Of a stretch of DNA of 49,810 nucleotides, positions 5,891 through 36,713 are shown one piece after another (position 1 is the stretch's first letter; each line of letters opens with the position of its first letter). The notes beneath the pieces are model-generated. The model made no database searches, had not been told where the DNA came from, and was given only the letters and a program-made list of their open reading frames with translations. This DNA comes from Thermofilum sp. NZ13 (lineage in GTDB: Archaea; Thermoproteota; Thermoprotei; Thermofilales; Thermofilaceae): NCBI GenBank assembly GCA_002855745.1, contig NDWX01000012.1, forward strand, positions 1-49,810, read 5' to 3'. Both the position numbers and the translations under genes were made by a program.

Positions 5891-5907
5891 ACTGTTTTGA
5901 AAACAGT
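5891..5907. promoter_or_regulatory. Perfect 17-bp palindrome, probable operator
   Basis: ACTGTTTTGAAAACAGT is a perfect inverted repeat. It lies exactly between the TATA box (5882-5889) and the ATG at 5912, over the expected transcription start. Imperfect dyad symmetry extends a few bases each way. A protein bound here would block polymerase loading. The obvious candidate is the wHTH-ended gene product directly downstream (autoregulation), which is inference. Confidence 0.65.
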
Positions 5908-5911
5908 TATT

Positions 5912-10200: not shown

Positions 10201-11559
10201 CTCCTGCAGACCGTGGAGCAGAGGGCTGGGGGCTTGGACAGGCTCAACCCGCTCGCGCGCACGCTCTACGAGAACACAGACTACCTCGCTCGAAAGACAC
10301 GAGGTGAGTGGCTCGTGGAGTGGGCTAGGAGGGTTGAAGCCTTCCTGAAGGGGCTGGAGGAGGACGTGGTGGGCCTTTACGCGAGGGCCCTTCTGGGAGC
10401 AAGGCTGGCGAGTGCCTTCACTAGGATAAGCTCCGCCGGGAAGGCCCGCGAGTGGGCTGGGGAAGCACGCAGAGCCCTCGAGCAGCTGGAGCGGCTCGAC
10501 AGGAGCGAGCTTGCAAAGGGTTTGGAGCGGCTCCTGAGGGTTTGGTATCCCCTCATAGAGCCGGGGGAGGCCGCCGAGAGGTTGCTGGAGAATTTGAAGC
10601 TTGCTGTGCTTAGCGAGGGGGCTCTCATCGAGCTGTTGGTCGACGCTGAGGAGGCGCTGAGGCTCGCGGATGAGCTTCACGTAATCGCCGAGAAGCTAGG
10701 GCTTCTAAGGCTTGTGGAGTCGCACTCGTTCCGCGCCAGGGCGATGCTACTTGCCGGCCGAAAGAGGGAGGACGTCATTGGGGAGATCAGGGAGAGCTGG
10801 GAGCTCGCGCACAGTTGGGGCTTCATCGGCCTCTCCGAGGATATTGTTGAAGCGATCACAGCGGAGTACGTGGCGTCTTTCCTCCTGGAGGGCAAGCCCC
10901 GGGAGGCGCTCGAACAGTACCGGGAGTACGGCTTCCTCATCCGGAATCCTAGGGTCCGCGCCGCGCTTTTAGCCCTCATGCTGGCCTGCGGCGCCGAGGA
11001 GATGAGAGAAGACATGGGAAAAGTGAGGAGGAGGTTCGAGGAGTACAGGAGCAGAGCCCTAGCGTATAGCGCCCTCAGACCCCTGGCTGTTGCCTACCTA
11101 GCCAAACCCCTGGCTGTTCTCTACGAAGAAATTGAGGAGGAAGAGGCTTGGGACAGTCTAGGGCCTTTAGAGTGGGTACCCTTCGCGGACATCTTGGGGA
11201 TAGCTAGGGAAGGCAACGTGGGTCAGTTGCTATGGCTGCTCGAGGAGCCACTTGGACTTGGCGAGCTGGTTCGCAAGCTTGAGCCCCACCTAGAGGGGCT
11301 TTCGGCGCTAGACGTCCTCGAGGTGGTATCCGCTCTGGTAAGTAGCAGAGTAACCTTCGTCGAGGTGGTGCACCAGGCGTGCGTGGAGGGGAGAGCTGGC
11401 CTAGCTAAGGTGCTCGCCAAGCTCTGGCAGGAGGAGTTGGAAGGGAGGGGCCTCACCCTTGCTGCGAGGCTTTGGGGCGAGCTCGCTGAGTCGCTGGAAG
11501 GCGGCTGCGGCGAGGAGTTCAGGGAAGCGCTGGTCAGGCTGTTCTACCTCTACGTGTAG
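7228..11559 (+). CDS. Giant STAND-like P-loop ATPase with coiled coil and helical repeats
   Basis: 1443 aa. Residues ~1-130 are an alpha/beta domain with a Walker-A-like loop lacking Lys (LAGPGSSRLE). Residues ~150-340 are helical. A long heptad coiled coil follows at ~342-410 (ERVEELEKRVGRIEDQ). Next is a P-loop NTPase with Walker A GPRGVGKS at 464-471 and a hydrophobic strand ending VVVVLPDD as probable Walker B. The last ~800 residues are helical, TPR-like pairs. This order (sensor repeats after a NOD-type ATPase after an effector or oligomerisation domain) is that of STAND signalling proteins, several of which act in antiviral defence. No nuclease, TIR or protease motif was seen at the N-terminus, so the effector is unknown. 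Confidence 0.65.
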   Translation: MSSEPSYEELVGRAANRVGELFKEKGVSVAVLAGPGSSRLEVARRIPGSVVVSYKLSEPLKELQEEDRAELLRFEGAEPFADGMTLAGYVRKKSPARVIVVPESTIEAIRVYRSLSERLGKGSVALVFTPGVHKEEFERRGAEQPGEAEVNYTPAFNAFKVMPEGGKSGVSLKLLQHHGTGEWEELRRGAEALRRLSPGSLGLRGALVNAGRRALSSLGERLAEELYAAVGGAVVASALEALASPQSSLAVVAKVIGYSFPPGLLLEIARGLIGVVRGEPEKEHVKQLAELVQAAIIAAEFVSDERLEGVADEVASQWGLSLREFRKLVENLRKLATQEVATEDELRKLREEVGGDLKALEQRLKELFEQRIDQLEKGLEDRLGQLEERVEELEKRVGRIEDQLRPLRALTGVYQEPGDLGFDLERGKFWVGKEYDLVTSGRFMEHAGKLLEALERGELVVVTGPRGVGKSVLTRYALARLLQSGHWRVYRAKTLDEESAAEMADSLARVADNSPWRLAVLYDPSAPLFYEPGYELPPPPGVGPTVWALARLHRVQGGRVPVVVVLPDDLYEQVKDRLKGAYVLRVDLRQEDFLTDIVRAYSGEVCSEEVYERIAREVTRYEGDYTLVARYAGEWLSEAGECNEKAVREALEAGVWSAEAFIALFIYKAVFRGKLAIFQKMAVPFIARAKLGPLPLKWLERFPVLKRGAYGGYVVKCLLDPLEHLTDGKKEFIKEWLSQPKEDVVEGVIRGIAKGTLSRRLQRLAEKGLVSPSAVEVARGMEERVRLVLERLRSARFDGECRGEQPVEVFFKALASDPELRELAEENSYHFAALVGLAHTVYSAESLLGEAGFPEGLKGWLTVGDEMPRSARWFLVETAPAFRLAVNPCQVLKSVHQRAEEEKGDNFISLLAALGALAASGGELEGCLDEAATVARLVLDKISLWLERPVLTRLSEALKKLVGKLMEEGRLLEAVDIAYKASKREPRLASDLLQTVEQRAGGLDRLNPLARTLYENTDYLARKTRGEWLVEWARRVEAFLKGLEEDVVGLYARALLGARLASAFTRISSAGKAREWAGEARRALEQLERLDRSELAKGLERLLRVWYPLIEPGEAAERLLENLKLAVLSEGALIELLVDAEEALRLADELHVIAEKLGLLRLVESHSFRARAMLLAGRKREDVIGEIRESWELAHSWGFIGLSEDIVEAITAEYVASFLLEGKPREALEQYREYGFLIRNPRVRAALLALMLACGAEEMREDMGKVRRRFEEYRSRALAYSALRPLAVAYLAKPLAVLYEEIEEEEAWDSLGPLEWVPFADILGIAREGNVGQLLWLLEEPLGLGELVRKLEPHLEGLSALDVLEVVSALVSSRVTFVEVVHQACVEGRAGLAKVLAKLWQEELEGRGLTLAARLWGELAESLEGGCGEEFREALVRLFYLYV

Positions 11560-14752: not shown

Positions 14753-17700
14753 CTAGAGCCACTTGTCTAATGGCATGTCTGCAGAGCCACCTGAGGGTGA
14801 CCTCCGCCTGTCTCCCCGTTGCCTCCCGATGTCGAGCGAGACCTCAGCGCCCGGCCTCGCAGGCCCCCTAGCGCCCTTGACCCTCCTCTCCATCATCTCC
14901 CAGGCGTAGTCCCAGAGCTGTTCGGCGTCGACGCCGAGGCCCAGAATGCCAGCTACCAGCCTGTCGATCTCCTGGAAGTGGGGCTTGAGCATTGCGACGG
15001 CCTCGAGCGCGCTTTTCCTCTTCCCCTTACTCCGGCACGGATCTCCCTCCTCTTCCTCCTCGGCTTGGGCGCCGACGAGGGCTGTCCTGGCGGCCTCTTC
15101 GAGAGAGTCGAACGCTTTGGCCAAGGCCTCGACATCCGCGCGGTCGAGGCCCTTGACGTTGAGCACGGGCATGCGCCTCAAGACGTTCACCTCGAGGCCC
15201 AGCGGCCCCTTCGGCACGTACCTGGCATTCTGCTCGAGCCAGAGCCACACGAACGTCGAGTTGAGGTAAGCGAGGAGAGCCTTCAGCTCCGTCTCGCCGA
15301 GCTCGACGTCTCTGGGCGCGATAGCACTGGACAGGTAAGGCCTCTCCTTGATGAAGTCGCTGGGGTCGACAGTTAGGTAGCCCGCCTTAACCTTGACCTT
15401 CGGGATGAGCGCGATGATGGCATCATAAGTCACCACGGGGAAGTCGACGTAGAAGAAGCGCGGGTGGTACCTAGGCTGGCGCACTGCCATCAGAGGCGTG
15501 GGCAGGTAGCCTCCCAGGTCGTACCAGCCCTTGAAGACCTTCGGGTTTCCCGCCCTAGCCCTGCACGCCTCGGCCTCGCTGCAGACCTCGCCGCCGCCCC
15601 GCGTGCCTCTGATCTTCGTCCTGCACTCTGTCTCGCCCCACCTGATGTACTCCCGAACTTGTGGCGGCAGTTTGCCCACGGCCTCGTGGCAGACGAAGAT
15701 GTACGCGTCCGATCCGCAGTCCCTCAGCGACTCCCAGTCCGCCCTTGTGAACGTGAACGTGGGAACGTTCTGAGACCTGGTGATCGCAGGCGCAAGATAG
15801 GGCTCTGCAGCTGCGTTGAAGCCAGGAGCCCTGCTTTCCCACTCATCTATCTTCTCAGTGCTAAAGTAGAAGAACTCCTTAGCGCCGAGGTTCCTGACAC
15901 CCCTTACTATACCCCAGCTTGCCAAACACAAGTAGAGCGCATTTCCGTAACTTGGCTCAAACCACTCTCCGAGAGCAGTCACGAGCTGGTGCTTCTCGAG
16001 CTTGCTGAGTAACTCTTCCACGCCTGTGAAGAAGAGGCTTATCCACTTCTTATCCTTTGGCACATCGCCCTGCCTGATCTGGGTGAACTGCACGCCGTAC
16101 TCTTCTGCGCAACGAGTCAGGGCGCGCGCATCGAGAGAGCCGTCGCTCCCGATGGCGTCCTCGACACACCGCAACACCTCGTCTAGGAGCTTCCCGGCCT
16201 TGAGGGGGTCCAGCTCCTCGCCGCCCTTCAGTCTGGGCGGTATCCTCACAAAGGTGATAACGTTGTTGTCACGCGCCTCGCCGTCGGGCTCCTTCTCGGC
16301 GAGCAGTATGACCGTCGAGATCGTCGCCTCGAAGAGCCTGAAGGACAGGTCGATCAGCGCCCTCACCCTGAAGTTGTCCAGGAGGAATCTGCCGAAGCCC
16401 ACGCCGTAGTCTGTCTGTAGCCACGCGTTGGATATTATCAAGCCCAGTCGCCCGCCCCTCGTTAGGAGGTTCTTGCAGGCGTGCATCACCCAGTATACGT
16501 ATATCCCTGGCTCTCTTCCCCGTGCGGTGTCGGCCCTCAGGTCGTACGCGTCGAGCTCGTCCCCTAGCTCCCTGAGTATCAAGTCCTGCGTCGTGCCGGG
16601 TATCTCCACCCACCGCGTGTAGGGGGGGTTGCCCACGACGGCTTCGAAGTGGTCTGGAAGCCTGAGCTCGCCGAGGGAGCTACGCTTCAGTGAGAAGAAG
16701 TCCCTCGTCTCCAGGTTCAGCCTAGATATGGGGCAGCGGGGCTCCATGAGCATCAGGTGCACGCCGGTCAGCTGGGTTGCGAATGCGTTAACGTCGACGC
16801 CGTAGAGCTGATCCAGCACGCCCTGGTGCTCGTTGAAACGCTCCGTGCAGGAGGGGTACTGGCCAGCGGAGTAGTCCTTGCCGTACTTCAGGAGCAGGAG
16901 CCTCTTGTAGGCCTCGATGAGGAAAGTGCCTGAGCCGCAGCCGGCGTCCAGAACCTTGTCCTCCCCAGACCGGATGGCCCACCGCGCGATGAGCCTCGCG
17001 ACGGCCGGCGGGGTGTAGAACTCGCCCAGCTGGTGCCTCTCCCCGGGGGGCAAGAGCCCCTCGAAGACGTAGCCTATCACGCCCGGGAGGTGCCTCAGCT
17101 CCGGTTTGAGGCCATCGACCAGCTCAATAATCTTGTTTACTTTCTCGACGGCTTCCAGACCCCCTAGGACAACCTCGTCGAAGGGTCCGGCGTTGAACAG
17201 GGGTGAGAAGTCCTTCATGCCGAGCTTCTCCTCGAGCTCTGATGAAGCCTGCTTGAATGTGGAGTTCAGAAGCTCTACGAGGTCGTCCGGCTTTTCCACG
17301 GTGTGCTCCTTGCCCCCAATCGTGACGCTCGCTCCGATGCCCACAGGCCTTAACGGGGGGATGACGTCGCCGTAGTGGAGCTCGAGAACCTTGTAGGCGA
17401 GCACCTTGTTCGCCAGGGCGTAGGCCATCATCCTGGCGAGGTTCTCGAAGGAGAGGATACCCCTCACACGCGTCGCCTTCAGCAACTCGACGGTCTGCAT
17501 GCCCAGCCTTCTGGCTTGCTCGACCCTACCAGCTTCCTCGTACAGCTCGAGCAGGGTCATCCCCGAGACGGCGCGGAGGGCCCTGAAGGCGTCCCCGTCC
17601 TCCGCTAGGCGCCTCCTCAAAGCGCCCTCGAGAATCTCCCTTATGGCTTCGCGCTGCCTCTCTCTTAGGGAGGGCGGGAGCACCAGCGACAGGATGCCCC

Positions 17701-18430
17701 GGCTGAGCAGGCCCTGCGCGTACCCCATCTCCTGGAGCCCGGCGTGCAGGCGCTTGAAGAACTCCGCGTCGTCGAGCAACCTGGCCTTCAGAGCCCCGCT
17801 GATGGACCTGCTCAAGTCCTCCACGTACTTTCTCATAGCCGAGACGAAGACCTCGTAAAAGGCCTCAGCTGGGAGCACGCGCCCCACTAGCTGGCTTTCG
17901 AGGGCGTCGCACAGCTTCTTTATGCCCGCGTCGCTGAGGGGGTCCTCAACGTGCGCGATTATGTGCCCGTTCAGGAGTGTGCTGAGGGCACCGGGTCTGA
18001 GGGCCTTGGCCCAGTCGTCGGGCGTCCTCTTGGTCTCCAGGCAGGCGTCCACGTCCAGCACCTTCTCGAGGTCGGAGCGCTCAATGCCCTTGAAGAGGAC
18101 TAGGAAGTCCCTGTTCGCCGTTGCGAAGAGCGGGGTCCTCTCCAGTTTGTACTCGAGCATCGCCAAGGCGGCGTAGCACGCGGCCTGAGCTATGGGCGCG
18201 GGGCCGAGGGGGTTGAGGCTTTCGCCGAGCGGCTCCTCGGCCTTCCTCTTCGTCTCTATGATGAGGACCGGGACGCCTCGCTCCTCAACGACGATGTCGG
18301 GTACTTTGCCCTGCAGCCTGCCGTCTGGCCTCGCCTGTAGCCTGCGCCCAGCGAGCGTGTACTTCTCGAAGTAGCCCCTCAGCTTCTCAAGGAGCTCGAA
18401 CGTAAATTCTACCTCCGCCTCCTTCGGCAT
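14753..18430 (-). CDS. Type IIG restriction-modification enzyme (fused nuclease and N6-adenine methyltransferase)
   Basis: 1225 aa. The N-terminal nuclease is of the PD-(D/E)xK type (PD with Asp45, then ETK at 59-61). A long helical linker leads to a gamma-class methyltransferase: SAM motif DAGCGSGTF at 495-503 and catalytic NPPY at 601-604. The C-terminal ~450 residues have the layout of a target-recognition domain (AYLNSTFVWLWLEQN is a typical conserved stretch). Both activities on one chain are diagnostic of type IIG/IIL enzymes, which cut and methylate without a separate R subunit. The recognition sequence cannot be read from sequence alone. All key residues are present, so it is likely active. 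A divergent EVE-domain gene follows its promoter side. Confidence 0.88.
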   Translation of the reverse strand: MPKEAEVEFTFELLEKLRGYFEKYTLAGRRLQARPDGRLQGKVPDIVVEERGVPVLIIETKRKAEEPLGESLNPLGPAPIAQAACYAALAMLEYKLERTPLFATANRDFLVLFKGIERSDLEKVLDVDACLETKRTPDDWAKALRPGALSTLLNGHIIAHVEDPLSDAGIKKLCDALESQLVGRVLPAEAFYEVFVSAMRKYVEDLSRSISGALKARLLDDAEFFKRLHAGLQEMGYAQGLLSRGILSLVLPPSLRERQREAIREILEGALRRRLAEDGDAFRALRAVSGMTLLELYEEAGRVEQARRLGMQTVELLKATRVRGILSFENLARMMAYALANKVLAYKVLELHYGDVIPPLRPVGIGASVTIGGKEHTVEKPDDLVELLNSTFKQASSELEEKLGMKDFSPLFNAGPFDEVVLGGLEAVEKVNKIIELVDGLKPELRHLPGVIGYVFEGLLPPGERHQLGEFYTPPAVARLIARWAIRSGEDKVLDAGCGSGTFLIEAYKRLLLLKYGKDYSAGQYPSCTERFNEHQGVLDQLYGVDVNAFATQLTGVHLMLMEPRCPISRLNLETRDFFSLKRSSLGELRLPDHFEAVVGNPPYTRWVEIPGTTQDLILRELGDELDAYDLRADTARGREPGIYVYWVMHACKNLLTRGGRLGLIISNAWLQTDYGVGFGRFLLDNFRVRALIDLSFRLFEATISTVILLAEKEPDGEARDNNVITFVRIPPRLKGGEELDPLKAGKLLDEVLRCVEDAIGSDGSLDARALTRCAEEYGVQFTQIRQGDVPKDKKWISLFFTGVEELLSKLEKHQLVTALGEWFEPSYGNALYLCLASWGIVRGVRNLGAKEFFYFSTEKIDEWESRAPGFNAAAEPYLAPAITRSQNVPTFTFTRADWESLRDCGSDAYIFVCHEAVGKLPPQVREYIRWGETECRTKIRGTRGGGEVCSEAEACRARAGNPKVFKGWYDLGGYLPTPLMAVRQPRYHPRFFYVDFPVVTYDAIIALIPKVKVKAGYLTVDPSDFIKERPYLSSAIAPRDVELGETELKALLAYLNSTFVWLWLEQNARYVPKGPLGLEVNVLRRMPVLNVKGLDRADVEALAKAFDSLEEAARTALVGAQAEEEEEGDPCRSKGKRKSALEAVAMLKPHFQEIDRLVAGILGLGVDAEQLWDYAWEMMERRVKGARGPARPGAEVSLDIGRQRGDRRRSPSGGSADMPLDKWL

Positions 18431-23399: not shown

Positions 23400-23726
23400 C
23401 TAAGCCGACACGCCACCACGCCTCAGGAGCCCCGAGGCCGACTCGCCGCACGCCGCTTCCTCGACGCTGTAGCCGAGCAGCACAAGCAGTCCGCAGGCCC
23501 GCTCCGTCAGGTAGATGTACCTCACGTTGCCTACCACTGCCTCCTTCACGAAGCCAGCTGAGCGGAGCTTCTCCAGGGCGCTGGCTATATACCTCGTGTT
23601 CCTTGTGCCGAAGGCCCTGCTGAGCGGCCTCGTCTGCCTGAGCCTCCAGAGCGTTTTAGTGAGGCCGGTCAGCTCGAGCCACCTGGCTACGCTCGCCCAC
23701 ACCTCGGCGCTAACCTCGACCGTCAC
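23400..23726 (-). CDS. Family A winged-helix protein (A2)
   Basis: 108 aa from GTG 23726, which has the family TATA box (CTTATAAA at 23746-23755) ~25 bp upstream. The frame is also open upstream into a HerA-like gene, but that join is a fusion scar. Pattern: N-terminal helix (VWASVARWLELTGL), helix-turn-helix (SRAFGTRNTRYIASALEKLR), a two-strand wing (FVKEAVVGNVRYIYLTE) and a last helix (ACGLLVLLGYSVEE). This is a classic winged-helix DNA-binding fold. This copy has no frame errors. Its C-terminal Cys-Gly-Glu-Ser tail is shared by other copies. Confidence 0.6.
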   Translation of the reverse strand: MTVEVSAEVWASVARWLELTGLTKTLWRLRQTRPLSRAFGTRNTRYIASALEKLRSAGFVKEAVVGNVRYIYLTERACGLLVLLGYSVEEAACGESASGLLRRGGVSA

Positions 23727-23834
23727 AGCCAAGCGCGTGTGGGAGTTTATAAGCGTTCGCAGGTGCTGTGACCGCAGTGAGCTAAGAGCCTCAAGGGGTT
23801 GCTCGAACACCCTCCCACACCCTCCCTCCAGCCC

Positions 23835-23901
23835 GATGGAAGCGAGGGAAGACGCGGGTCGAACACGGAAGAAACAGGGAAAAGCTAAAAAGTAGCATTG
23901 C
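23835..23901 (-). repeat. E element (E2)
   Basis: Read leftward: GCAATGCTAC, TTTTTAGCTTTTTCCCT, TTCTTCC, GTGTTCGACCCGCG. About 50 bp later come GGTGTTCGAGCAAC and the A2 promoter. This is the standard head of the repeat unit. Its outer edge (~23901) is exactly where homology to HerA stops. Confidence 0.65.
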
Positions 23902-24209
23902 TGCTCTGAGAGCTGAAATACCTGCGAGAATAGATCCACAACGAACTCAGGATCATGCTTAAGAGTCTCACCTCTTTCCAGGATATTCATCGAGAAGTTC
24001 TCGCCCGGAACATAGCGTTTAAGCCCTTTGTACTCTCCGTGCCAATCCAGTATCAGCACTTTTACACCTTTTTTAAAGTACTCCTCAACCAGAACTTTCG
24101 CGGTGTTTGTCTTGCCGCTGCCCGTAGGCCCCACGATAAGAATGTGGCTCTCGGGTATCCTGAGCACAGAGGGCAAATACTTTGACAGGTTCACTTTGAG
24201 GGATTTCAC
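23901..24209 (-). pseudogene. HerA-like (DUF87) ATPase, truncated after Walker A region by a repeat
   Basis: Only ~103 N-terminal residues remain. Walker A is GPTGSGKT, followed by VLILDWHGEYKG and VVDLFSQVFQLSE, all typical of HerA/VirB4-type ATPases that pump or resect DNA. The Walker B, arginine finger and C-terminal half are absent. Homology ends at ~23901, where the E2 element begins. The open frame continues artificially through E2 into the winged-helix gene. Divergent from the RPA-like pair at 24247. A HerA-like protein without these parts cannot hydrolyse ATP normally. Confidence 0.75.
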
Positions 24210-24246
24210 GTTGAATTAAAGCTGTGAAAAATAAAAGCCGAAAAGA

Positions 24247-24684
24247 GTGCATATCGATGTGTTGCTAAACGGGTACGTCAGGGTGCTTCCTAAGGAAGTT
24301 AGCCCTGAGAACGTCGTTCGGGAAGGTCCTGTAGCTTTTTTAAAGCTGTCTCTCGGAGAGGTGGAGGTTAAGACGAGGAAGCTCTGCACAATAGGTTTTG
24401 TGACCAGTATACAGCGTGGTAGCACCTACACGGACATTACCCTCGCACTGGAGAGCGGCCAGGTAACCGTAAGGGTTTGGGACACTCAGGGGGTGGGAGA
24501 CCTCCTCGAGGGCCTTAAGAAGGACTCCAAGGTTCTCGTTTTCGGAGTTCTCAGGGAGTACAGGGAGCAGATATACATCTCGGCTGTCCTGCTAAGAGCT
24601 GTAACAGAGGAGGAAATCTCGAAGTTTAAGAGGAAGCTACTCGCGGACAGGAAAATCCTACTGAACATAGCCAAAAAACAATAA
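24247..24684 (+). CDS. OB-fold ssDNA-binding protein, RPA32-like
   Basis: 145 aa from GTG 24247. Residues ~45-115 show the five-strand OB pattern (CTIGFVTSIQRGSTYTDIT, QVTVRVWDTQG, SKVLVFGVLRE, EQIYISAVLLRAV), followed by a basic helix. The IGFVTSI...VTVRVWD arrangement is the one seen in RPA2/RPA32-type and archaeal RPA-associated proteins. The next gene encodes a separate winged helix, the domain that follows the OB fold in RPA32. The two together thus look like a split RPA32. It lies divergent from the herA-like remnant, a DNA-repair context. Members of this order often lack canonical SSB, which makes it noteworthy. Confidence 0.6.
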   Translation: MHIDVLLNGYVRVLPKEVSPENVVREGPVAFLKLSLGEVEVKTRKLCTIGFVTSIQRGSTYTDITLALESGQVTVRVWDTQGVGDLLEGLKKDSKVLVFGVLREYREQIYISAVLLRAVTEEEISKFKRKLLADRKILLNIAKKQ

Positions 24685-24721
24685 TAGCAAGTTCTCGTGA
24701 AGAGATTCAGGGTGTATCTCC

Positions 24722-25060
24722 ATGCCGGAGAAGAGGAAAAAAGAGGAAAAACAGCCTCAAGGAGTCGATTTGATGAAGTTTTTCTCGAGCCAGGAGGAAC
24801 AACCCCAAGCTGCCGCGGGTTCTCGCCCTGCATCTCGAGAAGAAGCTCTCCTTACAGAAGAAGTGGAAAAACTCCTGCTTCAACGCATTAAGCAAGAACC
24901 CTCTGGTCTGACAAGAAGCCAGCTCTATGAGTGGAGCAAGAAAAGGGGAGTCAACCCCGCCTCATTTTACAGAGCGTTAACATCCCTAATAGAGAAGGGG
25001 CTAGTTCAACGCAAATTCGACACAACCCGTGAAGAATACGTGTTTATAGCCGTACATTAA
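24722..25060 (+). CDS. Winged-helix protein, RPA32 C-terminal-like
   Basis: 112 aa. The N-terminal ~45 residues are charged and disordered. Residues ~48-110 form a wHTH (LLLQRIKQEPSGLTRSQL, NPASFYRALTSLIEKGLV, then the wing QRKFDTTREEYVFIA). It is 37 bp downstream of the OB-fold gene on the same strand, so one operon. The domain pair OB plus wHTH is that of RPA32, here on two chains. The wHTH of RPA32 recruits repair proteins, and this one may do likewise (inference). It ends 20 bp before a degenerate repeat unit. Confidence 0.6.
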   Translation: MPEKRKKEEKQPQGVDLMKFFSSQEEQPQAAAGSRPASREEALLTEEVEKLLLQRIKQEPSGLTRSQLYEWSKKRGVNPASFYRALTSLIEKGLVQRKFDTTREEYVFIAVH

Positions 25061-25074
25061 TGAAATGATCCCGG

Positions 25075-25088
25075 TAGCCGATTGAGGC
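25075..25088 (+). repeat. Residual 3' tail of family A
   Basis: CCGATTGAGGCTTATTCG corresponds to the last codons of family A genes (CGGCCTTGAGGCTCATTCG at 49250-49270). Only this tail survives beside B2, showing that an A gene once converged on it. Confidence 0.5.
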
Positions 25089-25487
25089 TTATTCGACGCG
25101 TAGCCGGAGCTGCCTCCGGTGCAGCATGACCGTGGCGATATGGCTGCATATTTTTGCCTTCCTCACGTAGCCGTAAGCCCTGAAGAAGCAGTCGCAGCGG
25201 TACTTTCCCCCGCTTATCCAGACGTTGTACCAGGGGTAGGTGTCGCCGAGCTCCGCTAGCCCCTTCACCAGCCAGTGCTCTGCGCCAACTCTCTCCACTT
25301 TCCTGGCGAGGAGCCTGTACGCAACCCTGTAAAACCACTCAGCGGGCTTGTCGGGGAATGAGGAGGGCAACTCCCCCGAGGCGTCGAGCAGACCCCATGC
25401 TCCCCGGTCAGCTTACCGTCACAGTAGCCGTAGAGGTCGTGCCTTACCAAAGCCCATGCTAGCCTGCTCTCCCCCTCCTAGCCCTCG
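25089..25487 (-). pseudogene. Family B SWIM gene, frameshifted (B2)
   Basis: The C-terminal 93 codons are intact, including the SWIM motif C-D-C...C-S-H and FPDKPAEWFYRVAYRLLA. The N-terminal part (AWALVRHDLYGYCDGKLTGEHG) is in another frame because a base is missing in the run at ~25385-25395 relative to the intact gene at 6777. Without correction no full-length protein is made; a short form starting inside is possible. Confidence 0.75.
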
Positions 25488-25615
25488 CCAAGCCCCAGCA
25501 CCCAGAGAGCCTTCTCCTTGAGCGGGATGGTGAAGCCTACCGGGTGCGGAGCGGAGCACTCCTCAGGGAGCATTATTCGATCAGCCTCTGCTAGCTCTCC
25601 AGCTTCATTTTCACT
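25478..25615 (-). pseudogene. Family C 3' stub (C2')
   Basis: The last ~40 codons of family C (HPVGFTIPLKEKALWVLG, compare HPAGVTVSLTEKALWVLS at the end of the 5912-6787 gene), ending in TAG just before B2. Homology starts at the same internal point as in the copy at 34222-34350, so the truncation predates spread of the unit. Confidence 0.7.
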
Positions 25616-25660
25616 TTCAGTCTTCAAAGCGAAAAGGAGATGAGCACTTTAACCATCTGA

Positions 25661-25873
25661 AGTAGCGGAAAGTCACCAGTTCCCGGCACGGCGACACAGC
25701 AATGGGCCGCTTGCCGGGCGCCGTGCGCGGCTCGATGAGGCGAAGAGGCGCCGAGGCGAGACCCCGCCGCACAGCCCCAAGCGGATTGGCGGGGCGGGCC
25801 GAAGGCGCGGAGCCCATGAAAACCCTTAAAGGGAGCCCGGATCAGTGAAGGGGCAGATGAGCCAGGCGCGGCC
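25661..25873. ncRNA. R element copy 1: candidate structured RNA
   Basis: 213 bp, very GC-rich. The ends are shared with the copy at 34396-34591: AGTAGnGGnAAGTC at the left, CAGTGAAGGGG and CAGATGAG then CCAGGCGCGGCC at the right. The interior differs, but helices persist. Here CCCGGCA pairs with TGCCGGG around a CGGC...GCCG core; the other copy has CCCGCC with GGCGGG around the same core. Compensating changes argue for RNA rather than protein. A short leftward frame (ending ISFSL in both copies) is a weaker alternative. Strand and promoter are not settled. Confidence 0.45.
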
Positions 25874-25899
25874 AACTCAGGCCTATCCCCACACGAACC

Positions 25900-26229
25900 C
25901 TAGACTTTTGTGAAGCGCTTCTTCAGCTCCTTGTACTCCTCCTGCGGTACCTTCGACGCCTCCCTCTTACCGTCTTCAGTTAAATTGACCTCGTAACCGG
26001 TCATCGTGATGTAGCCCTTATCCCTCAAACCACGTATGGCTTCCGCGAAGCCCCCCACAACGCGCGCAAAGTTCGGGTTCTTCCTAGGCAAAAACTCCTC
26101 CGTAATGAACTCAGCTAGGTATTCCTCAGGTGCGCTGCTCCCAGATTGATAATATATCTTGCCGCCGTACTCATAATAGATGTACGCTAGCAAGAACCTT
26201 TCAACGCCGGTTAGACTCAACTCCCCCAC
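25900..26229 (-). CDS. Winged-helix-like hypothetical protein
   Basis: 109 aa from GTG 26229. The frame is open further upstream through the antisense of tRNA-Gly, but a TATA element (AAATATAGG, ~26250-26258) lies 25 bp before GTG 26229 and fixes a leaderless start. Helices (SLTGVERFLLAYIYYEYG, NFARVVGGFAEAIRGLRDKG) are followed by a wing (YITMTGYEVNLTEDGK) and a basic tail, a wHTH layout. Divergent from tRNA-Gly. No named family. Confidence 0.55.
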   Translation of the reverse strand: MGELSLTGVERFLLAYIYYEYGGKIYYQSGSSAPEEYLAEFITEEFLPRKNPNFARVVGGFAEAIRGLRDKGYITMTGYEVNLTEDGKREASKVPQEEYKELKKRFTKV

Positions 26230-26391
26230 CCGACGTTTTTTCCGAAGCCTCCTATATTTACTTTTGCATCTATTCCTCTTCAAAAAAGGAAGATAGCCCT
26301 CAACGAGAGGCTCTCGGATTGCCTCAATACAGGAAACTAAAGAACAAAAATAAATAGAGGTTCCGTAAATATAGAGGGAGTGAGAGAGGTA

Positions 26392-26465
26392 GCGGCCGTA
26401 GTCTAGTCTGGTAGGATGGCGGCCTCCCAAGCCGCAGAACCCGGGTTCAAATCCCGGCGGCCGCA
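26392..26465 (+). tRNA. tRNA-Gly (CCC)
   Basis: Complete cloverleaf of 74 nt. Acceptor GCGGCCG/CGGCCGC with discriminator A, anticodon arm GCGGC-CTCCCAA-GCCGC (anticodon CCC), T arm CCGGG-TTCAAAT-CCCGG. No intron, and CCA is not encoded. TATA-like GTAAATATAG ~25 bp upstream. Confidence 0.95.
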
Positions 26466-26519
26466 CCTGGCTCCCATCTTCTCCTCGTTTTCCGACCCTT
26501 GAGCTACCGGATCTATGAG

Positions 26520-26720
26520 CACCTCCGTGTAGTCCACAACAAATCGTGGCCAGGTTGCTCGAGCTAACCGAGCTGACGGGGGATGCTTTAGCACCTGAGG
26601 CAACCCCAGGCCCATCACCAGAGCCTTCGGCACCCGCAACCGGGGTACATCACCGTTGAGCTGGAGAGGCTCCGCTCAGCGGGCTTCGTGAAGGAGGCTG
26701 TCGTCGGCAACGCAACACTG
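26520..26720 (+). pseudogene. Family A winged-helix remnant (A3)
   Basis: Nucleotide-level matches to family A (GTTGCTCGAGCTAACCGAGC, then TGGAGAGGCTCCGCTCAGCG and TTCGTGAAGGAGGCTGT) in order, but frame-shifted and lacking both ends. No promoter or B partner remains. Confidence 0.65.
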
Positions 26721-26912
26721 AAGCCGAGCAAGGATGACGAAGAGCCTAAGGGGACCAGTGGGGGCAGAAAAGGAGGAGCAGTAAGGTGAATGCTTTTTAT
26801 GTGCACCGCGAAGACTCGCGCCAGGTAGTTTCGCGGAGAACGGGGGACCATGGAGTTTACGCTAATGTCATTCTCGCATGCCAAGCTGTTGAAGAAAAAA
26901 CAGTACAGATAG
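26721..26912. other. Non-coding spacer before tRNA-Met
   Basis: No gene supported. AT-rich around 26880-26910, downstream of the leftward tRNA-Met, where it could act as a terminator region. Confidence 0.3.
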
Positions 26913-27017
26913 TGCCGGGGCCGGGATTCGAACCCGGGAAACTCCCGCATACCCCTAGGCAGGGGTATGTACCGGATTATGAGTCCGGCGCCCTAGACCA
27001 GGCTAGGCGACCCCGGC
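26913..27017 (-). tRNA. tRNA-Met (CAT, elongator type) with variable-loop intron
   Basis: Acceptor GCCGGGG/CCCCGGC with discriminator A; anticodon arm CCGGA-CTCATAA-TCCGG; T arm CCGGG-TTCGAAT-CCCGG. The seven-base anticodon loop is intact. Between the anticodon and T arms are 34 nt instead of ~5, containing the hairpin CATACCCC-TGCCTA-GGGGTATG. This implies a ~29-nt intron at a non-canonical variable-loop site, a known habit of Thermoproteales tRNAs. The initiator GGG/CCC anticodon stem is absent, so it is the elongator (an Ile-CAU reading cannot be excluded). Confidence 0.88.
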
Positions 27018-27059
27018 TCTGTGTTTCAAGACAACTCTGGGGAAAATATAATTCTTGCG

Positions 27060-27968
27060 CTAGAAGGTTACCCTGGAGGCGTAGATCTTCTGCTGTAGCT
27101 CATCGACAAACGTTTCAACACCTTTCACCTGCGGTAATCGCGTCATGATGTCTCGCTCAGTCAATATCCCAACCGGTTTCTTCTCAGCGGAGACAACAAC
27201 AACCGCTCCGATCCCGCGCTCCTTCATCCTCTTCACCGCCACACCCACATCGTCCTCAGGGCTCACCGTTACCACAAGCCTACTGGCGATGTAGGCTAAA
27301 GGTGTTTCATAGACCCTCTGGGCATCACCGGCCCGAAGGGCTTTTAGCACATCATCCGAGGCGAGGAAGCCTAGAATATCTTTGACCGTGACTATACCCT
27401 GTAGCTCGCTTCCGGCTATAAGCGGTATGCGCCTGACTCTCCTCTCGCTCATAAGCTGAAGACCCGTCCTGATGTTATCGCTGGGCGTAAGGCTGGCGAA
27501 AGGCTTAGTCATTATCTCCTTCACCTTAACATGGGACTCCACGTCGGCGAAAAGAGAAATTATGTGCCGCTCCGAGATGATGCCCACCAACACGCCGTCC
27601 CTGTTCACCACGGCCAAAGCGCCGACGCCGCGGTAAAGCATAGTTTCAACAATATCCTTGAGGTCAGCGTCCATGTAGACGAATGGAGGCTTGTAGCTTA
27701 GCGATAAGGCATCAGTCTCTTCTAAGGCTTTGTACATGTCGCCGCTGTAAGTCCCGACAACAATGTCTTTAAACCTCCTACCTCCCAAGAAGTCCACAAG
27801 ATCGCGGACAGATACCATACCAACAAGCTTACCATCATTGTCCACCAGCGGGCAGTGCCTGACACGCTTCGATGCCATTCCAATAAGTACCTCGAGAAGC
27901 TTTGAATCAGGCTTCAGGAAAAGGGCGGGGGGGTAGCGACCCACACCGATTTCAAACAGCTTCATCAA
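27060..27968 (-). CDS. Quadruple CBS-domain protein
   Basis: 302 aa made of four CBS modules at about 10-70, 85-145, 150-205 and 230-290. Recurring signatures include HCPLVDNDGKLVGMVSVRDL, ALAVVNRDGVLVGIISERHI, RIPLIAGSELQGIVTVKDIL and AVVVVSAEKKPVGILTERDI. Tandem CBS pairs (Bateman modules) bind adenine nucleotides and regulate partner enzymes or transporters. No catalytic or DNA-binding domain is attached, so it is probably a free energy-sensing regulator. It sits between tRNA-Met and the rRNA operon on the same strand, with its own 5' AT-rich region. The partner cannot be named from context. Confidence 0.88.
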   Translation of the reverse strand: MMKLFEIGVGRYPPALFLKPDSKLLEVLIGMASKRVRHCPLVDNDGKLVGMVSVRDLVDFLGGRRFKDIVVGTYSGDMYKALEETDALSLSYKPPFVYMDADLKDIVETMLYRGVGALAVVNRDGVLVGIISERHIISLFADVESHVKVKEIMTKPFASLTPSDNIRTGLQLMSERRVRRIPLIAGSELQGIVTVKDILGFLASDDVLKALRAGDAQRVYETPLAYIASRLVVTVSPEDDVGVAVKRMKERGIGAVVVVSAEKKPVGILTERDIMTRLPQVKGVETFVDELQQKIYASRVTF

Positions 27969-31375: not shown

Positions 31376-32877
<1,502 letters not shown>

Positions 32878-32907
32878 CTGGCCGCGGGCGGGTGGAGCAC
32901 CTAGATT

Positions 32908-32928
32908 AGCCTGCGCACCGCGCCTCAC
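32908..32928 (-). other. 5' strand of the 16S processing stem
   Basis: Perfectly complementary over 21 bp to 31339-31359. Both strands are bordered by the same AGATTAGC sequence (31331-31338 and 32903-32910 on the + strand). Confidence 0.85.
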
Positions 32929-32934
32929 TTTCTT

Positions 32935-32989
32935 TTCCCCGAGAGTGCAGGCGCCCCCTCAGCGGCCGGCGCCAGTTTTCTCGGGGAAG
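32935..32989 (-). repeat. 16S leader hairpin, duplicated at 49541-49604
   Basis: On the transcript, TTCCCCGAGA pairs with TCTCGGGGAA and TGGCGCC with GGCGCC, separated by an internal loop (AAAC/TGCAC). An almost identical hairpin plus ~10 following bases lies on the + strand at 49541-49613. A second leader hairpin (GCCGTGGAC/GTCCACGGC, 32998-33079) precedes it. Confidence 0.75.
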
Positions 32990-33100
32990 CACTGTGTAGC
33001 CGTGGACGGAGGCCGCCTTTTCATTGGGAGAGGGATCCTCTCCCGCTAATCCAGGCGAGCCGCCGGTGTCCACGGCCGCAGTTTTAGTGGTTAATGGGGG

Positions 33101-33112
33101 TCTATTTAAACA
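33101..33112 (-). promoter_or_regulatory. rRNA operon promoter
   Basis: GTTTAAATAG on the - strand is a strong archaeal TATA box. Transcription should start near 33080, just before the leader hairpins. Nothing else in the region can drive the rRNA genes. Confidence 0.75.
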
Positions 33113-33155
33113 TTACTCGCGGGAAGCTTCCTCTGCATCCCATCATCCGAAACAA

Positions 33156-33252
33156 TGGTATTTTTAGCTCTTCCCTGGATTCTTCCCGTGTTCGACCCGC
33201 GCTTCCCCCGCCTCCCGAGGGTATGGTGAGGGGTTGCTGGTTGGTGTTCGAG
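33156..33252 (+). repeat. E element (E3), adjacent to the rRNA promoter
   Basis: TTTTTAGCTCTTCCCT, TTCTTCCCGTGTTCGACCCG, then GGGTTGCTGG and GGTGTTCGAGC, in the same order as E2 and E4. It begins ~45 bp upstream of the rRNA TATA box. In this copy ~280 bp of extra DNA separate it from the A gene. Confidence 0.65.
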
Positions 33253-33379
33253 CGCGGGCTCGGGCTTGCAGCCACGGTGGCTGTGAAGAACTCCAGTGGC
33301 CTTACCGCGGAGCGGGGGCACTCATAGAGTAGAAGCCAAAAAAGAAAGAGGGGGAGAGAAAAAGGCTTTGTTGCTTTCA

Positions 33380-33494
33380 GCCTAGGAGCCTGAGCGCAGG
33401 TACTCCGAGAGGCCCAGCCCCTCTCCCCTGCCTCCCTCCTCAGCCTCTCTTTCTCAGCCGGCGCGGCGTGGTAGTCCGTGGCTCCGACGAGCAC
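33380..33494 (-). pseudogene. Decayed small ribbon-helix-helix-like gene
   Basis: From GTG 33494 it reads LVGATDYHAAPAEKERLRRE, then frame-shifts. Dropping one base near 33420 gives GLGLSEYLRSGS and a stop. EKERLRREA...LGLSEYLR is the pattern of the two helices of CopG/antitoxin-type ribbon-helix-helix proteins. It is divergent from family A gene A4 across a short promoter region. Small size and the frame error make this tentative. Confidence 0.4.
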
Positions 33495-33508
33495 AACTTG
33501 CGTGAGCG

Positions 33509-33516
33509 CTTATAAC
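33509..33516 (+). promoter_or_regulatory. TATA box of family A gene A4
   Basis: CTTATAAC at 33509-33516, 28 bp before ATG 33539. The same box precedes every family A copy whose 5' end survives (19230-19240, 23746-23755; TTTTATAC at 48952-48959). Confidence 0.6.
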
Positions 33517-33538
33517 TCTCCTCTTGCATTTAGCCTTG

Positions 33539-33874
33539 ATGGTCGAGGTAGACAGGGAGGTCTGGAACTGCGTTGCGAGGTGGCTCGAGCTGACGGGTCT
33601 CACAAGAACGCTGTGGCGCCTGAGGCAGCCCAGGCCTCTCAGCAACTCGTTCAGCACAAGGAACTCGAGGTACATCGCCGTTGCGCTGGAGAGGCTCCGC
33701 TCAGCCGGCCTCATAAAAGAAGCCGTCGTTGGCAAACGCCCGCTACGTCTACCTCACCGAGGGGCCTGCGGACTGCTTGTGCTGCTCGGCTACAGTAGCG
33801 AGGAGCTAATGTGCGGCAAGGCTACCTTGAGGTTTATTCGGCGCAGAGCCTCAGCTGCCTCCTGTGGAGCATGA
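33539..33874 (+). CDS. Family A winged-helix protein (A4), with paired compensating frameshifts
   Basis: 111 aa. The same winged-helix layout as A2 (VWNCVARWLELTGL, RNSRYIAVALERLRSAGLI). Relative to A2 an extra A at ~33735 and a lost base at ~33762 put about ten codons (the wing) in another frame, after which CGLLVLLGYSSEE resumes. The frame stays open, but the wing is nonsense (KRPLRLPHRG instead of a strand-turn-strand). It may be non-functional or carry two sequencing errors. Its 3' end converges on, and overlaps, SWIM gene B3. Confidence 0.55.
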   Translation: MVEVDREVWNCVARWLELTGLTRTLWRLRQPRPLSNSFSTRNSRYIAVALERLRSAGLIKEAVVGKRPLRLPHRGACGLLVLLGYSSEELMCGKATLRFIRRRASAASCGA

Positions 33875-34225
33875 CGGTGGCGATGTGCGAGCATATCCTG
33901 GCCTTGCGCACGTAGCCGCATGCCGGAGAGGCAGCCGCACCTGTACCCCCCTCGCTCACCCGGACATTGCACCAGGGGTACGTGTCGCCCAACTCGGGTA
34001 GCCCCCTGACGAGCCTGTTCTCCCCGCCAACCCTCTACACTTTGCCCGCTAGAAGCCTGTACACAGCACGGTAGAACCACTCCGCGGGCTTATCGGGAAA
34101 AGACGATTACGGCTCACCTAAGGCGTCGAGCAGGTCCCCGCGCTCCTCGACTATCTTATCGCGGCAGTAGCCGAATACGGCGCACATCACTAGCGCCCAG
34201 GCCACTTTGCTCTCACTGCTCCTAG
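33834..34225 (-). pseudogene. Family B SWIM gene, multiply frameshifted (B3)
   Basis: Pieces of the family are readable in different frames (CAVFGYC near 34170, PAEWFYRAVYRLLA near 34080, ARICSHIATVMLHRRQLRL near 33870). At least two frameshifts lie between 33900 and 34110, and the first Cys pair is disturbed. Stop TAA 33834-33836 lies inside the tail of A4. Confidence 0.7.
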
Positions 34226-34350
34226 CCCTCAAGCGAGAGCACTCACGGAGCCTTCTCTGTAACGGAAACGGTTACTCCGGCGAGGTGCGGGCCCTCCTCA
34301 GGTAGCCGTGGTCGATCAGCCTCAGTTAGCTCCCCCAGCTTCGTTTTCAC
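34222..34350 (-). pseudogene. Family C 3' stub (C3')
   Basis: Matches the last ~40 codons of family C (LAGVTVSVTEKAP, then an in-frame TGA, then VLSLEG). Truncated at the same 5' point as the stub at 25478-25615. Confidence 0.65.
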
Positions 34351-34395
34351 TTTCACCTTTCACAGCGAAAAAGAGATAAGACCAAAACCAGGTGT

Positions 34396-34591
34396 AGTAG
34401 TGGCAAGTCCAGTTCCCGCCCCGGCGAATAGCCGTCTGGCGGGTGCCGCGCGCGGCGCGAGGAGGGTATGTGCCCGCGGCGACGCGGGCTGAAGGCCGCT
34501 AGGACGCGGCCCGCCGCGAAAAGGGGCGACCCATGGCCCCGCTAGGGGGCCCTCGGAGCAGTGAAGGGGGCAGATGAGGCCAGGCGCGGCC
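34396..34591. ncRNA. R element copy 2: candidate structured RNA
   Basis: 196 bp sharing both ends with 25661-25873 but diverged inside. Helix CCCGCC/GGCGGG encloses CGGC-GAATA-GCCG. A further helix CGCGGCG/CGCCGCG encloses GGCCGC/GCGGCC, and GGCCCC pairs with GGGGCC near the end. It abuts the secE promoter. Strand unresolved. Confidence 0.45.
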
Positions 34592-34597
34592 AAAAAG

Positions 34598-34607
34598 GTT
34601 TTTATGG
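34598..34607 (+). promoter_or_regulatory. TATA box of the secE-spt5-ubiD operon
   Basis: GTTTTTATGG directly after the R element. A start ~26 bp later precedes GTG 34642. Confidence 0.5.
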
Positions 34608-34641
34608 CATGCGCGCGTATGGGAGGAGAGGGTGGCTCTAC

Positions 34642-34914
34642 GTGAAAGTGCTCGACGTTTTAGGCGACTGGGTGAGGGTCCTAAAGCTCGCCACTAAGCC
34701 ATCGAGAGAGGAGTACAAGCTGACCTTAAGAGTAGTCCTCCTCGGTCTCGGGATACTGGGCACGATGGGCTTCTTCTTCCAGCTGGCAGGATCCATGCTC
34801 GAGTTCGCCAGTATACAGGCTATACCGCGCGAGTACGCGCTTTTGGGGGGTCTAGTCGTCGGAGCTGTTATCTTCTTCATCGCGCTCTACCTGAGATCTC
34901 GAAGCGAGCTATAG
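34642..34914 (+). CDS. secE: Protein translocase SecE/Sec61-gamma, with an extra C-terminal membrane helix
   Basis: 90 aa from GTG 34642 (ATG 34609 is too close to the TATA box). The amphipathic segment LKLATKPSREEYKLTLRV followed by the helix LLGLGILGTMGFFFQLAG is the SecE signature: the clamp helix and the tilted helix that hold SecY together. Most archaeal SecE proteins end there at ~60 aa. This one continues ~35 residues to a second helix (ALLGGLVVGAVIFFIALYL). spt5 begins immediately after its stop, the usual archaeal pairing. Membrane protein. Confidence 0.85.
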   Translation: MKVLDVLGDWVRVLKLATKPSREEYKLTLRVVLLGLGILGTMGFFFQLAGSMLEFASIQAIPREYALLGGLVVGAVIFFIALYLRSRSEL

Positions 34915-35397
34915 GTGAGCTACGTGGAGCAAGCTTCCGCCACGAAAGCGACGCGCTTCTACGCGTTCCGCGTCACGGCAGGGCAGGAGTACAACGTTGC
35001 GCACCTCCTGTACAACAGAGCTAGCAAGGGACAATACAACGTAGACTCCATAGTTGTTGTGCCGGGCGTGAAGGGGCTTCTCTTCATAGAGTGCAGAGCC
35101 CTCTACGAGGCCCAGCGGCTCGTGGCCGGGATGAAGCACGTAAGGGGGGCTGTAAGGGGAGCCATTAGCTTCAGCGAAATGGAGTCGTTCATAAAGCCCA
35201 AACCCGTGGTCGAGGCCGTCAGAGTGGGTGACCTTGTCGAGATAATTAGAGGCCCCTTCGCCGGAATGAGGGGAAAAATCATCAGCGTGGACCCGGCAAG
35301 AAACGAAGTTAAAGTGGAGCTCGCAGAGGCCGTGTACGTGTTACCCGTAACGATCAGCGCGGATGACATTAAGGTGGTGAAGCGAGCGGAAGGATAA
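34915..35397 (+). CDS. spt5: Transcription elongation factor Spt5 (NusG family)
   Basis: 160 aa. The NGN domain spans ~12-95 (FYAFRVTAGQEYNVAHLL, VVPGVKGLLFIEC). The KOW domain spans ~103-155 (VGDLVEIIRGPFAGMRGKI). With Spt4 it clamps RNA polymerase for processive elongation and couples to the ribosome. Start GTG 34915 abuts the secE stop. Its own stop overlaps the ubiD ATG by one base, indicating a tightly coupled operon. Confidence 0.95.
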   Translation: MSYVEQASATKATRFYAFRVTAGQEYNVAHLLYNRASKGQYNVDSIVVVPGVKGLLFIECRALYEAQRLVAGMKHVRGAVRGAISFSEMESFIKPKPVVEAVRVGDLVEIIRGPFAGMRGKIISVDPARNEVKVELAEAVYVLPVTISADDIKVVKRAEG

Positions 35398-36713
35398 TGC
35401 GGGAAGCATCGCCTCCTGCACAGAACGCCGCGCTAGACCTGCGCGCCTTGTTACAGTTCTACCGCTCTCAGAGCGAGATAATAGAGTCTCAGCGTAAGCT
35501 CAAGCTAGAGTTCGAGGTTGCTAGATTCATAAGAGACAGCCAGCCAACCCCGATAGTGGCCGACACCGAGCGTGGACCTGTTGTGTCTAACCTCTTCGCC
35601 GGCCGTAAAGCCTTGTTCGAGGTCCTCGGAGTCCGCGATGACGCCGAGGCTTACTCGAAGATGGCCAGAGCCATGTCCTCCCCGCTTCAGATAAGCAACC
35701 TAACGACCCCCTCGTTAGTGTCGCTCGGCGACGACCTCCTCAGGCTACCGGTACCCAAGTTCTTCGAGAAAGATGGGGGTTACTACATAACGGCAGGGGT
35801 ATTCATCGCCAAGGAGGTTGGCGGCAGGGCCGTCAACGCGAGCATACACAGGGCTATGATCCTAGACGAGAACCACCTAGCGGTAAGGCTCGTTCCACGC
35901 CACCTCTATTACATGTTCACCCAGGCCGAGAAGAGGGGCATCGCGCTTCCTGCAGCGATCCTGGTTGGAGCACCACCTGCAGTTTACGTGGCTGCTGCGT
36001 GCAGTCCACCCTACGGAATTTACGAGGTAGAGGTCGCCAACACCTTAGCCGGTGGAGGTCTAGCTGGCACCTTAGACCTCCTCGAGGGTGTAGTGCTGCC
36101 GGTCCCGTCTGAAGTAGTTATACTCGGCGAGTTCTTGCCCGGTAAGCGCTCGAAGGAGGGTCCTTTCGTGGACATTCTCGGCACCTACGATGAGGTGCGC
36201 GAGGAGCCTGTTTTCCTGGTTCACGAGATTCTCACGAGGCAAACTCCATACTTTTACTCCATACTCTCCTCGGGTTACGAGCACACCCTCCTCATGGGTT
36301 TCCCGAGGGAAGTCGCGATATGGGACAGCGTGAGCAAGGTTGTCCCCAAGGTTCACAAAGTTAGGCTACCTCCTTCCGGCGGCGGATGGCTCTACGCTGT
36401 AGTCAGCATAGACAAGAGCACCGAAGGTGACGCAAAAAACGCTATACTGGCCGCATTTGCGGCGCACCCCTCCCTAAAGATAGCCATCGTCGTTGATGGC
36501 GACGTCGATCCAGACAACCCGGAAGACGTCGAGTGGGCTATTGCGACCAGGATGCAGCCAGACGAGGATTTAGTAGTCATTAGAGGGGCCCGGGGCAGCA
36601 GCCTCGACCCGTCGGCTGACCAAAAATCCCTCATAACCTCTAAGCTCGGCATAGACGCCACAAGGCCGCTAAGCAAGCCGGGTTGGATGTTTGAAAAAGC
36701 AAGAATACCCTGA
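35397..36713 (+). CDS. ubiD: UbiD-family decarboxylase (probable anhydromevalonate phosphate decarboxylase)
   Basis: 438 aa, the normal length. UbiD motifs are present: PTPIVADTERGPVVSNLFAG near the N-terminus, then INASIHRAMILDENHLAVRL-like and HLYYMF, and GPFVDILGTYD, the conserved prFMN- and metal-site region. These enzymes use prenylated FMN for reversible decarboxylation. In archaea one member decarboxylates trans-anhydromevalonate 5-phosphate in the modified mevalonate route to isoprenoid lipids. That assignment here is by family and lineage, not by unique residues. ATG overlaps the spt5 stop, so it is co-transcribed with secE and spt5 where many archaea carry ribosomal protein genes. 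Confidence 0.85.
   Translation: MREASPPAQNAALDLRALLQFYRSQSEIIESQRKLKLEFEVARFIRDSQPTPIVADTERGPVVSNLFAGRKALFEVLGVRDDAEAYSKMARAMSSPLQISNLTTPSLVSLGDDLLRLPVPKFFEKDGGYYITAGVFIAKEVGGRAVNASIHRAMILDENHLAVRLVPRHLYYMFTQAEKRGIALPAAILVGAPPAVYVAAACSPPYGIYEVEVANTLAGGGLAGTLDLLEGVVLPVPSEVVILGEFLPGKRSKEGPFVDILGTYDEVREEPVFLVHEILTRQTPYFYSILSSGYEHTLLMGFPREVAIWDSVSKVVPKVHKVRLPPSGGGWLYAVVSIDKSTEGDAKNAILAAFAAHPSLKIAIVVDGDVDPDNPEDVEWAIATRMQPDEDLVVIRGARGSSLDPSADQKSLITSKLGIDATRPLSKPGWMFEKARIP

Follow-up and report, generated by a model that had tools for sequence, protein, structure and literature searches.

We describe here a structured DNA segment, denoted R, which is present in two copies in the window (the whole stretch of 49,810 nucleotides that was analysed) and which, in our assessment, has a probability of about 0.8 of serving an archaeal TnpB element in two ways, as its omegaRNA (reRNA) scaffold and as its fixed right end. 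The assignment to omegaRNA follows from the adjacency of R to tnpB genes, the fold of the TnpB protein and the association between the type of the RNA core and a helix of the protein. The preliminary description of R as the RNA partner or recognition element of a repeat unit is thus borne out inasmuch as R is likely to be a TnpB scaffold and a fixed end, but the supposed tie to the C stub, a gene remnant that R was said always to follow, is not: in many copies, R comes after tnpB or after a short leader alone. The C stub as the partner of R was discarded because R occurs without it and the stubs are passengers inside some of the inserted units. The relevant features of the window are as follows.

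25091..25872, plus strand: inserted unit 1, 782 bp, left-truncated, without tnpB, absent from the same-species genome G013; follows CTTTC
25089..25370, minus strand: C stub, passenger of unit 1, a remnant of a SWIM-like zinc-finger gene
25606..25675 (approximate limits), plus strand: leader, found just before R in tnpB-less copies
25676..25873, plus strand: R copy 1 (core A, P1 class GGC), which forms the right end of the mobile unit and is predicted to act as an omegaRNA scaffold
25682..25718, plus strand: P1, the covarying 5' hairpin of copy 1
25874..25893, plus strand: presumed guide flank of copy 1 (inferred, with an assumed length of 20 nt); CTTTC just before it in the empty allele
33153..34589, plus strand: inserted unit 2, 1437 bp, consisting of left end, N gene, C remnant, leader and R, without tnpB; absent from G013
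33153..33200, plus strand: left end of unit 2, common to full-length copies
33524..33874, plus strand: N gene, coding for a small protein with weak winged-helix similarity below the cut-off
33840..34232, minus strand: C stub of unit 2, a SWIM-like gene remnant with two stops
34409..34591, plus strand: R copy 2 (core B, P1 class GCC), likewise the right end of its unit and a predicted omegaRNA scaffold
34415..34443, plus strand: P1 of copy 2
34592..34611, plus strand: presumed guide flank of copy 2 (20 nt assumed); CATCC before it in the empty allele

The 1.88-Mb genome that contains the window (G000) harbors about 36 dispersed copies of R, the two window copies included (36 nhmmer matches, 32 of which, those longer than 100 nt, make up the R alignment). 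The copies comprise two subfamilies, with core A (copy 1, 25676-25873) and core B (copy 2, 34409-34591), respectively, that have in common the 5' hairpin region, the junction and approximately 50 nt at the 3' end; the GC content is high. Of the limits originally given for the first copy, 25661-25873, the start had to be moved because the shared part begins at 25676 and the first 15 nt belong to the leader. Among 17 genomes of the family, each R model detected homologs in G000 and G013 only, apart from three weak, partial matches to model R1 in G009. The proposed comparison with Rfam yielded no family above the curated threshold, only sub-threshold chance matches, and the identities considered, namely, HgcC, RNase P and C/D-box RNA, were dropped for lack of a match.

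The architecture of R predicted by RNAalifold and single-sequence folding consists of the 5' hairpin P1, a long closing helix in which GCCGCGC pairs with the terminal GCGCGGC, a 3-bp helix (GGC/GCC in core A, GGG/CCC in core B) enclosing the core, which is one long hairpin in type A and three short ones in type B, and two 3' hairpins, the last of which has a conserved GUGAA in its loop. In the window, 49 of the 51 predicted pairs are formed in copy 1 and all 43 in copy 2. The original observation that two diverged copies preserve a helix through compensating changes is upheld: the stem arms initially singled out do pair (CCCGGC, 25682-25687, with GCCGGG, 25713-25718, in copy 1; CCCGCC, 34415-34420, with GGCGGG, 34438-34443, in copy 2), and P1 can be folded in all 29 complete copies, with 23 distinct hairpins that form six classes and with changes in both arms. 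Each class is found with both cores: GGC in nine core-A and three core-B copies, GCC in three and one, ACC in two and four, TCC in one and one, GCAG in one and one, and CCGG in one and two.

When all copies are considered, the excess of covariation that was to be expected of a selected RNA is present and confined to P1. With shuffles that ignore the relatedness of the copies as the reference, double-change cells number 19 versus 6.4 for the core-A structure (17 copies) and 10 versus 2.6 for the core-B structure (12 copies). Pairing is found in 95% of the cells for core A, compared to 38-47% in slid registers, and in 94-95% for the two cores taken together, compared to 38-51%. After the removal of P1, however, core A shows no excess (2 double-change cells versus 1.3 in the shuffles), which means that the remaining helices show conservation but not covariation. 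The notion of a selected RNA structure accordingly stands for the compensating changes in P1 and the strict conservation elsewhere, but not as covariation outside P1. The high GC content and the lack of covariation beyond P1 might be taken to indicate that R is simply a chance GC-rich, self-complementary repeat devoid of selected structure; such a view is hardly tenable given that P1 folds in 29 of 29 copies with both arms changed across six classes, and that the true register so greatly exceeds the slid ones in pairing. Conservation does not follow the codons of a leftward reading frame either: any single minus frame is open in at most 13 of the 29 copies and the lengths vary modulo 3, so that a protein-coding frame, not being kept across the copies, is ruled out. 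There is no clear loss of pairing in the tnpB-less copies of R relative to the tnpB-bearing ones; the fold is kept in the former, which may simply be young.

The link to TnpB is apparent from gene order. Of the 27 complete G000 copies of R that are not in the window, 16 lie directly 3' of a TnpB ORF or overlap its end, and the same arrangement is seen in 9 of the 12 copies in G013; both window copies are without tnpB. All three TnpBs tested passed the Pfam model Cas12f1-like_TNB, which has 26 matches in the genome, other TnpBs among them. When the AlphaFold2 model of TnpB (7-sequence alignment; pLDDT 80.9, pTM 0.67) was compared to known structures with Foldseek, the top matches were Cas12f (8j12, E 1.5e-9) and ISDra2 TnpB (8h1j, 5.3e-9). 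In all 23 TnpBs that cover the position of the RuvC-II glutamate, it is replaced with alanine or valine, so the cleavage activity of these proteins is uncertain, and the R-linked TnpBs do not carry the full RuvC D-E-D triad; the replaced residue is followed by an invariant aspartate that might substitute for it. A glutamate displaced to the alternative place of the Fanzor type, as defined in an excerpt of PMC10711439, is absent from the TnpB alignment. Searches for TnpB in collections of genome, viral and plasmid contigs, from which near records may be missing, found none.

A comparison of 25 TnpBs, 11 associated with core A and 14 with core B, points to a match between protein and RNA; the permutation tests ignore relatedness, with the middle of the protein serving as an internal control. 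In residues 76-100, which correspond to the long helix 32-60 of the model (its numbering starts 43 residues later), likeness within a core type exceeds that between core types by 0.22 (0 of 500 permutations). Blocks 101-200 show weak differences between core types (+0.02 to +0.04, p 0.004-0.03), blocks 201-375 show no association, and a difference of +0.02 (p 0.026) at block 376-400 is followed by none in the remainder. Because this middle region is unassociated with the core type, the N-terminal association is not due to proximity. The last 90 residues track the P1 hairpin class (p 0.002-0.04), an association that can be explained by proximity on the DNA. The exceptions are L023 and L042, two of the 11 core-A TnpBs, in which core A is combined with a B-like helix.

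The tracking of the TnpB helix by the core type, along with the position of R next to TnpB, bears on the possibility that R is an end signal at the DNA level, the hairpin being a single-strand or cruciform site of an unknown transposase and the RNA form incidental. Hairpins are usual at the ends of IS200/IS605 elements, and R is the invariant end of the insertions; P1, however, lies approximately 150-165 nt inside this end rather than at it, R is mostly conserved well beyond the needs of a hairpin site, and the Y1 transposase (PF01797), detected in 5 of 14 controls, has no match in G000. We consider this explanation distinctly unlikely and retain the omegaRNA scaffold as the preferred interpretation, under which we infer that R is transcribed and bound by TnpB, with cleavage and the use of guides in trans.

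Comparison with G013 provides empty alleles for both window copies: 24200-25090 and 25873-27200, on the two sides of copy 1, are contiguous there, and so are 32500-33152 and 34590-35400, on the two sides of copy 2. Among 29 further right flanks, 28 were found in G013 (L024 is missing); R is absent at 22 of these sites and present at six (L026_2533, L026_5767, L036, L038, L025 and L039), that is, with the window pair included, it is missing in G013 at 24 of 30 sites. Conversely, 10 of 11 flanks from G013 were found in G000, where six sites are without R, three are occupied and one is uninformative. The homology between the strains resumes at the 3' end of R at each of the 29 sites compared (31 were tried; L015, with a variant end motif, and L146, occupied in both genomes, were dropped).

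Both junctions could be mapped for 21 insertions, namely, L010, L014, L011, L017, L019, L016, L023, L034, L022, L009, L018, L026_4987, L012, the two window copies and six in G013. The inserted sequences are 258 to 3521 bp long, and the short, tnpB-less ones (258-1437 bp) retain the end and R. The left side is variable: 11 insertions start at a common left end (AGCAATGCTATTTTTAGC) or within approximately 65 nt of it. In the remainder, the truncation falls within the first part, within the N gene, at the N/C border or before tnpB, or the insertion begins at the leader. Left ends are not scattered but concentrated at module borders. Target duplications of 4-15 bp accompany seven insertions (11-12 bp in L010 and in L142, 9-11 bp in L147 and L144, 8-10 bp in L019, approximately 15 bp with mismatches in L012, and 4-6 bp in window copy 2), L014 and window copy 1 have junctions that are blunt to within 1 bp, and at the remaining 12, between 5 and 595 bp of the target were lost. 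Despite their left truncation, L010, L142 and L019 have a target duplication. In L019, the duplication also encloses about 203 nt of foreign sequence that matches the start of a gene located elsewhere in both genomes (93% identity in G013, 91% in G000), which we take from its ORF to be orotidine-phosphate decarboxylase. The insertions L009, L018 and L017 replaced 433-595 bp of apparent host coding sequence in G013 and may have damaged host genes.

Full-length copies, of approximately 2.4-3.5 kb, consist of the left end, the N gene, in several cases a SWIM remnant, tnpB and R; the N and SWIM-like proteins contain no recognised transposase domain. At 5897-7175 (plus strand) of the window, a 296-aa ORF is followed by a 132-aa SWIM-like ORF, without a Pfam match at 0.01; the pair seems to represent the C stub in its intact state. 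An ORF at 23400-24209 (minus strand) fuses the start of a HerA-like ATPase to a copy of the N gene, an arrangement suggestive of the insertion of an N unit into a herA-like gene. N or C units with another right end (..GGGG.CCAGTGGGGGCAG..) and without R are found at 26630-26800 and in L139 (G000 contig C3, approximately 1783-2630) and may represent a sister family; the L139 unit adjoins the gene whose start is carried by L019. Elsewhere in the window, 7228-11559 (plus strand) encodes a 1443-aa protein with weak matches to AAA/STAND NTPases, possibly a STAND-type defence protein, and 14753-18430 (minus strand) encodes a 1225-aa protein that matches models of N6 DNA methylase/Eco57I and type IIG restriction enzymes. 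The outer flank of the 16S rRNA gene recurs in inverted orientation (32924-32992 versus 49539-49613; 37 nt at 97% and 36 nt at 86%).

In the empty alleles, the flank is preceded by the motif CHYYC (29 sites, one of them re-registered by hand). Counting back from the flank, C occupies the first position at 23 of the 29 sites and the fifth at 18, pyrimidines are found at the second position in 25 and at the third in all, and G is absent from the fourth; YYC is present at 20 sites versus 1.6 expected. By contrast, the end of R itself is mostly C-G-G-C-C, with G at position -4 in 30 of 30 copies and at -3 in 29 of 30, so the element would be spared by a reader that accepts only pyrimidines at -3 and rejects G at -4, as is to be expected of a TAM. 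Judging from the sequences, CHYYC could be a TAM read by TnpB or, equally, a preference of the integrating enzyme. We apply here the logic set out in an excerpt of PMC11870625, whereby TnpB records the flank as the guide and the TAM equals the insertion site of TnpA. The presumed guide flank of copy 2 is just upstream of a gene start and would accordingly represent promoter-proximal DNA. The presumed guides do not match the other target sites (the longest shared stretch averages 7.2 nt, versus 7.0 nt when shuffled), so guide-directed spread is unsupported.

Under the proposed mechanism, the R transcript would fold into the class-specific P1, the long closing helix, core A or B and the two 3' hairpins, with its 3' end abutting the genomic flank that would act as the guide, and TnpB would bind it in part via the N-terminal helix that fits the type of core. 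Insertion would join the 3' end of R to the target just after CHYYC, that is, at the place of the TAM for the guide so acquired, and the end of R itself, with GG at the place of the motif, would escape self-targeting. Joining at the left end would be loose, so that a copy may be complete or truncated on the left and be accompanied by a short duplication or by a deletion of the target, and copies without tnpB, such as those in the window, could still supply guides to TnpB made elsewhere.

The fixed R end, the loose left end and the mixture of duplications and deletions fit either one-ended DNA transposition or target-primed reverse transcription; the former is modestly favoured because no reverse transcriptase was found and many copies share a left end. 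In the one-ended scenario, an unrecognised enzyme acting in trans would mobilize DNA anchored at R, and the far end would be resolved imprecisely by repair. We rate its chances at slightly below even: the combination of one fixed and one loose end, the foreign sequence at the left end of L019, the target deletions, the left end common to 11 of 21 copies and the lack of RVT_1 (PF00078; no matches in G000 or G013, present in 3 of 14 controls) all speak for it, but the families searched, PF01797 and PF00078, gave no candidate enzyme, and truncated copies with duplications of 8-12 bp are atypical of IS91-like one-ended events. LINE-like retroposition through an RNA, with priming at the target and recognition of R as the 3' structure, would account for the invariant 3' end, for the left-truncated L010, L019 and L142 with their 8-12 bp target duplications next to target deletions elsewhere, for the foreign 5' sequence of L019 and for the C or CC that the targets share with the terminal CC of R. 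It appears doubtful, nevertheless, given the absence of RVT_1 from both genomes (G000 is 98.9% complete, so an extrachromosomal reverse transcriptase is still conceivable), a full-length left end that keeps a TATA-like box which its own transcript would lose, and the clustering of left ends at module borders. Still more speculative, and in our view unlikely, is an elaboration in which the TnpB-omegaRNA element, in a cell devoid of any recognisable reverse transcriptase, spreads in the manner of a LINE, anchored at its 3' end and primed by RNA, the 3' end of the omegaRNA being the primer site for integration, the tnpB-less copies SINE-like riders that spread guides, and the modules reshuffled such that cognate TnpB/RNA pairs are kept.

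A predicted structured RNA that adjoins tnpB on the 3' side, R resembles the omegaRNAs (reRNAs) of the TnpBs of IS200/IS605 and IS607 elements (ISDra2), to which it is likened by position and partner gene. Like the omegaRNA of the ISDra2 type, R reaches the right end of the element, with the flank then as the presumed guide and a motif beside the target; unlike it, R has no Rfam match and, within a single genome, comes with two alternative cores and six classes of hairpin, the associated TnpB lacks the RuvC-II glutamate, and no TnpA was found. Members of the IS1341 group likewise have only tnpB of the usual pair and occur in many copies, but the R element is set apart from them by an extra N gene and SWIM remnants, by short duplications of the target and by copies truncated on the left; the autonomy of such TnpB-only elements is stated to be unclear in an excerpt of PMC9956272. 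Whereas IS200/IS605 elements use a Y1 TnpA and produce no target duplication, the R element duplicates 4-15 bp in a third of the mapped cases (7/21), and no Y1 match was found in G000. The fixed 3' end, the 5'-truncated copies, the variable target duplications and deletions, and the riders that keep only the 3' end are reminiscent of LINE/SINE retroposons, but no reverse transcriptase was found, there is no poly(A) or tail repeat, and the host is an archaeon. The short tnpB-less copies (258-1437 bp), which keep the end and R, are similar to MITE-like non-autonomous elements, from which they differ in keeping a complete predicted guide-RNA scaffold and in the absence of inverted terminal repeats at the unit ends compared. 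Our literature search found nothing on TnpB in Thermofilum and nothing relevant on retroposon-like elements in archaea.

Thus, many sites that vary between two genomes of a single species are occupied by a TnpB-only element, and the searches detected no Y1 transposase in G000 and no RVT_1 in G000 or G013. The 21 insertions mapped on both sides, with their motif, duplications and truncations, constitute a test set for the mechanism of movement, and the recombination of two cores and six hairpins with segments of TnpB amounts to a natural experiment in the recognition between TnpB and its RNA.
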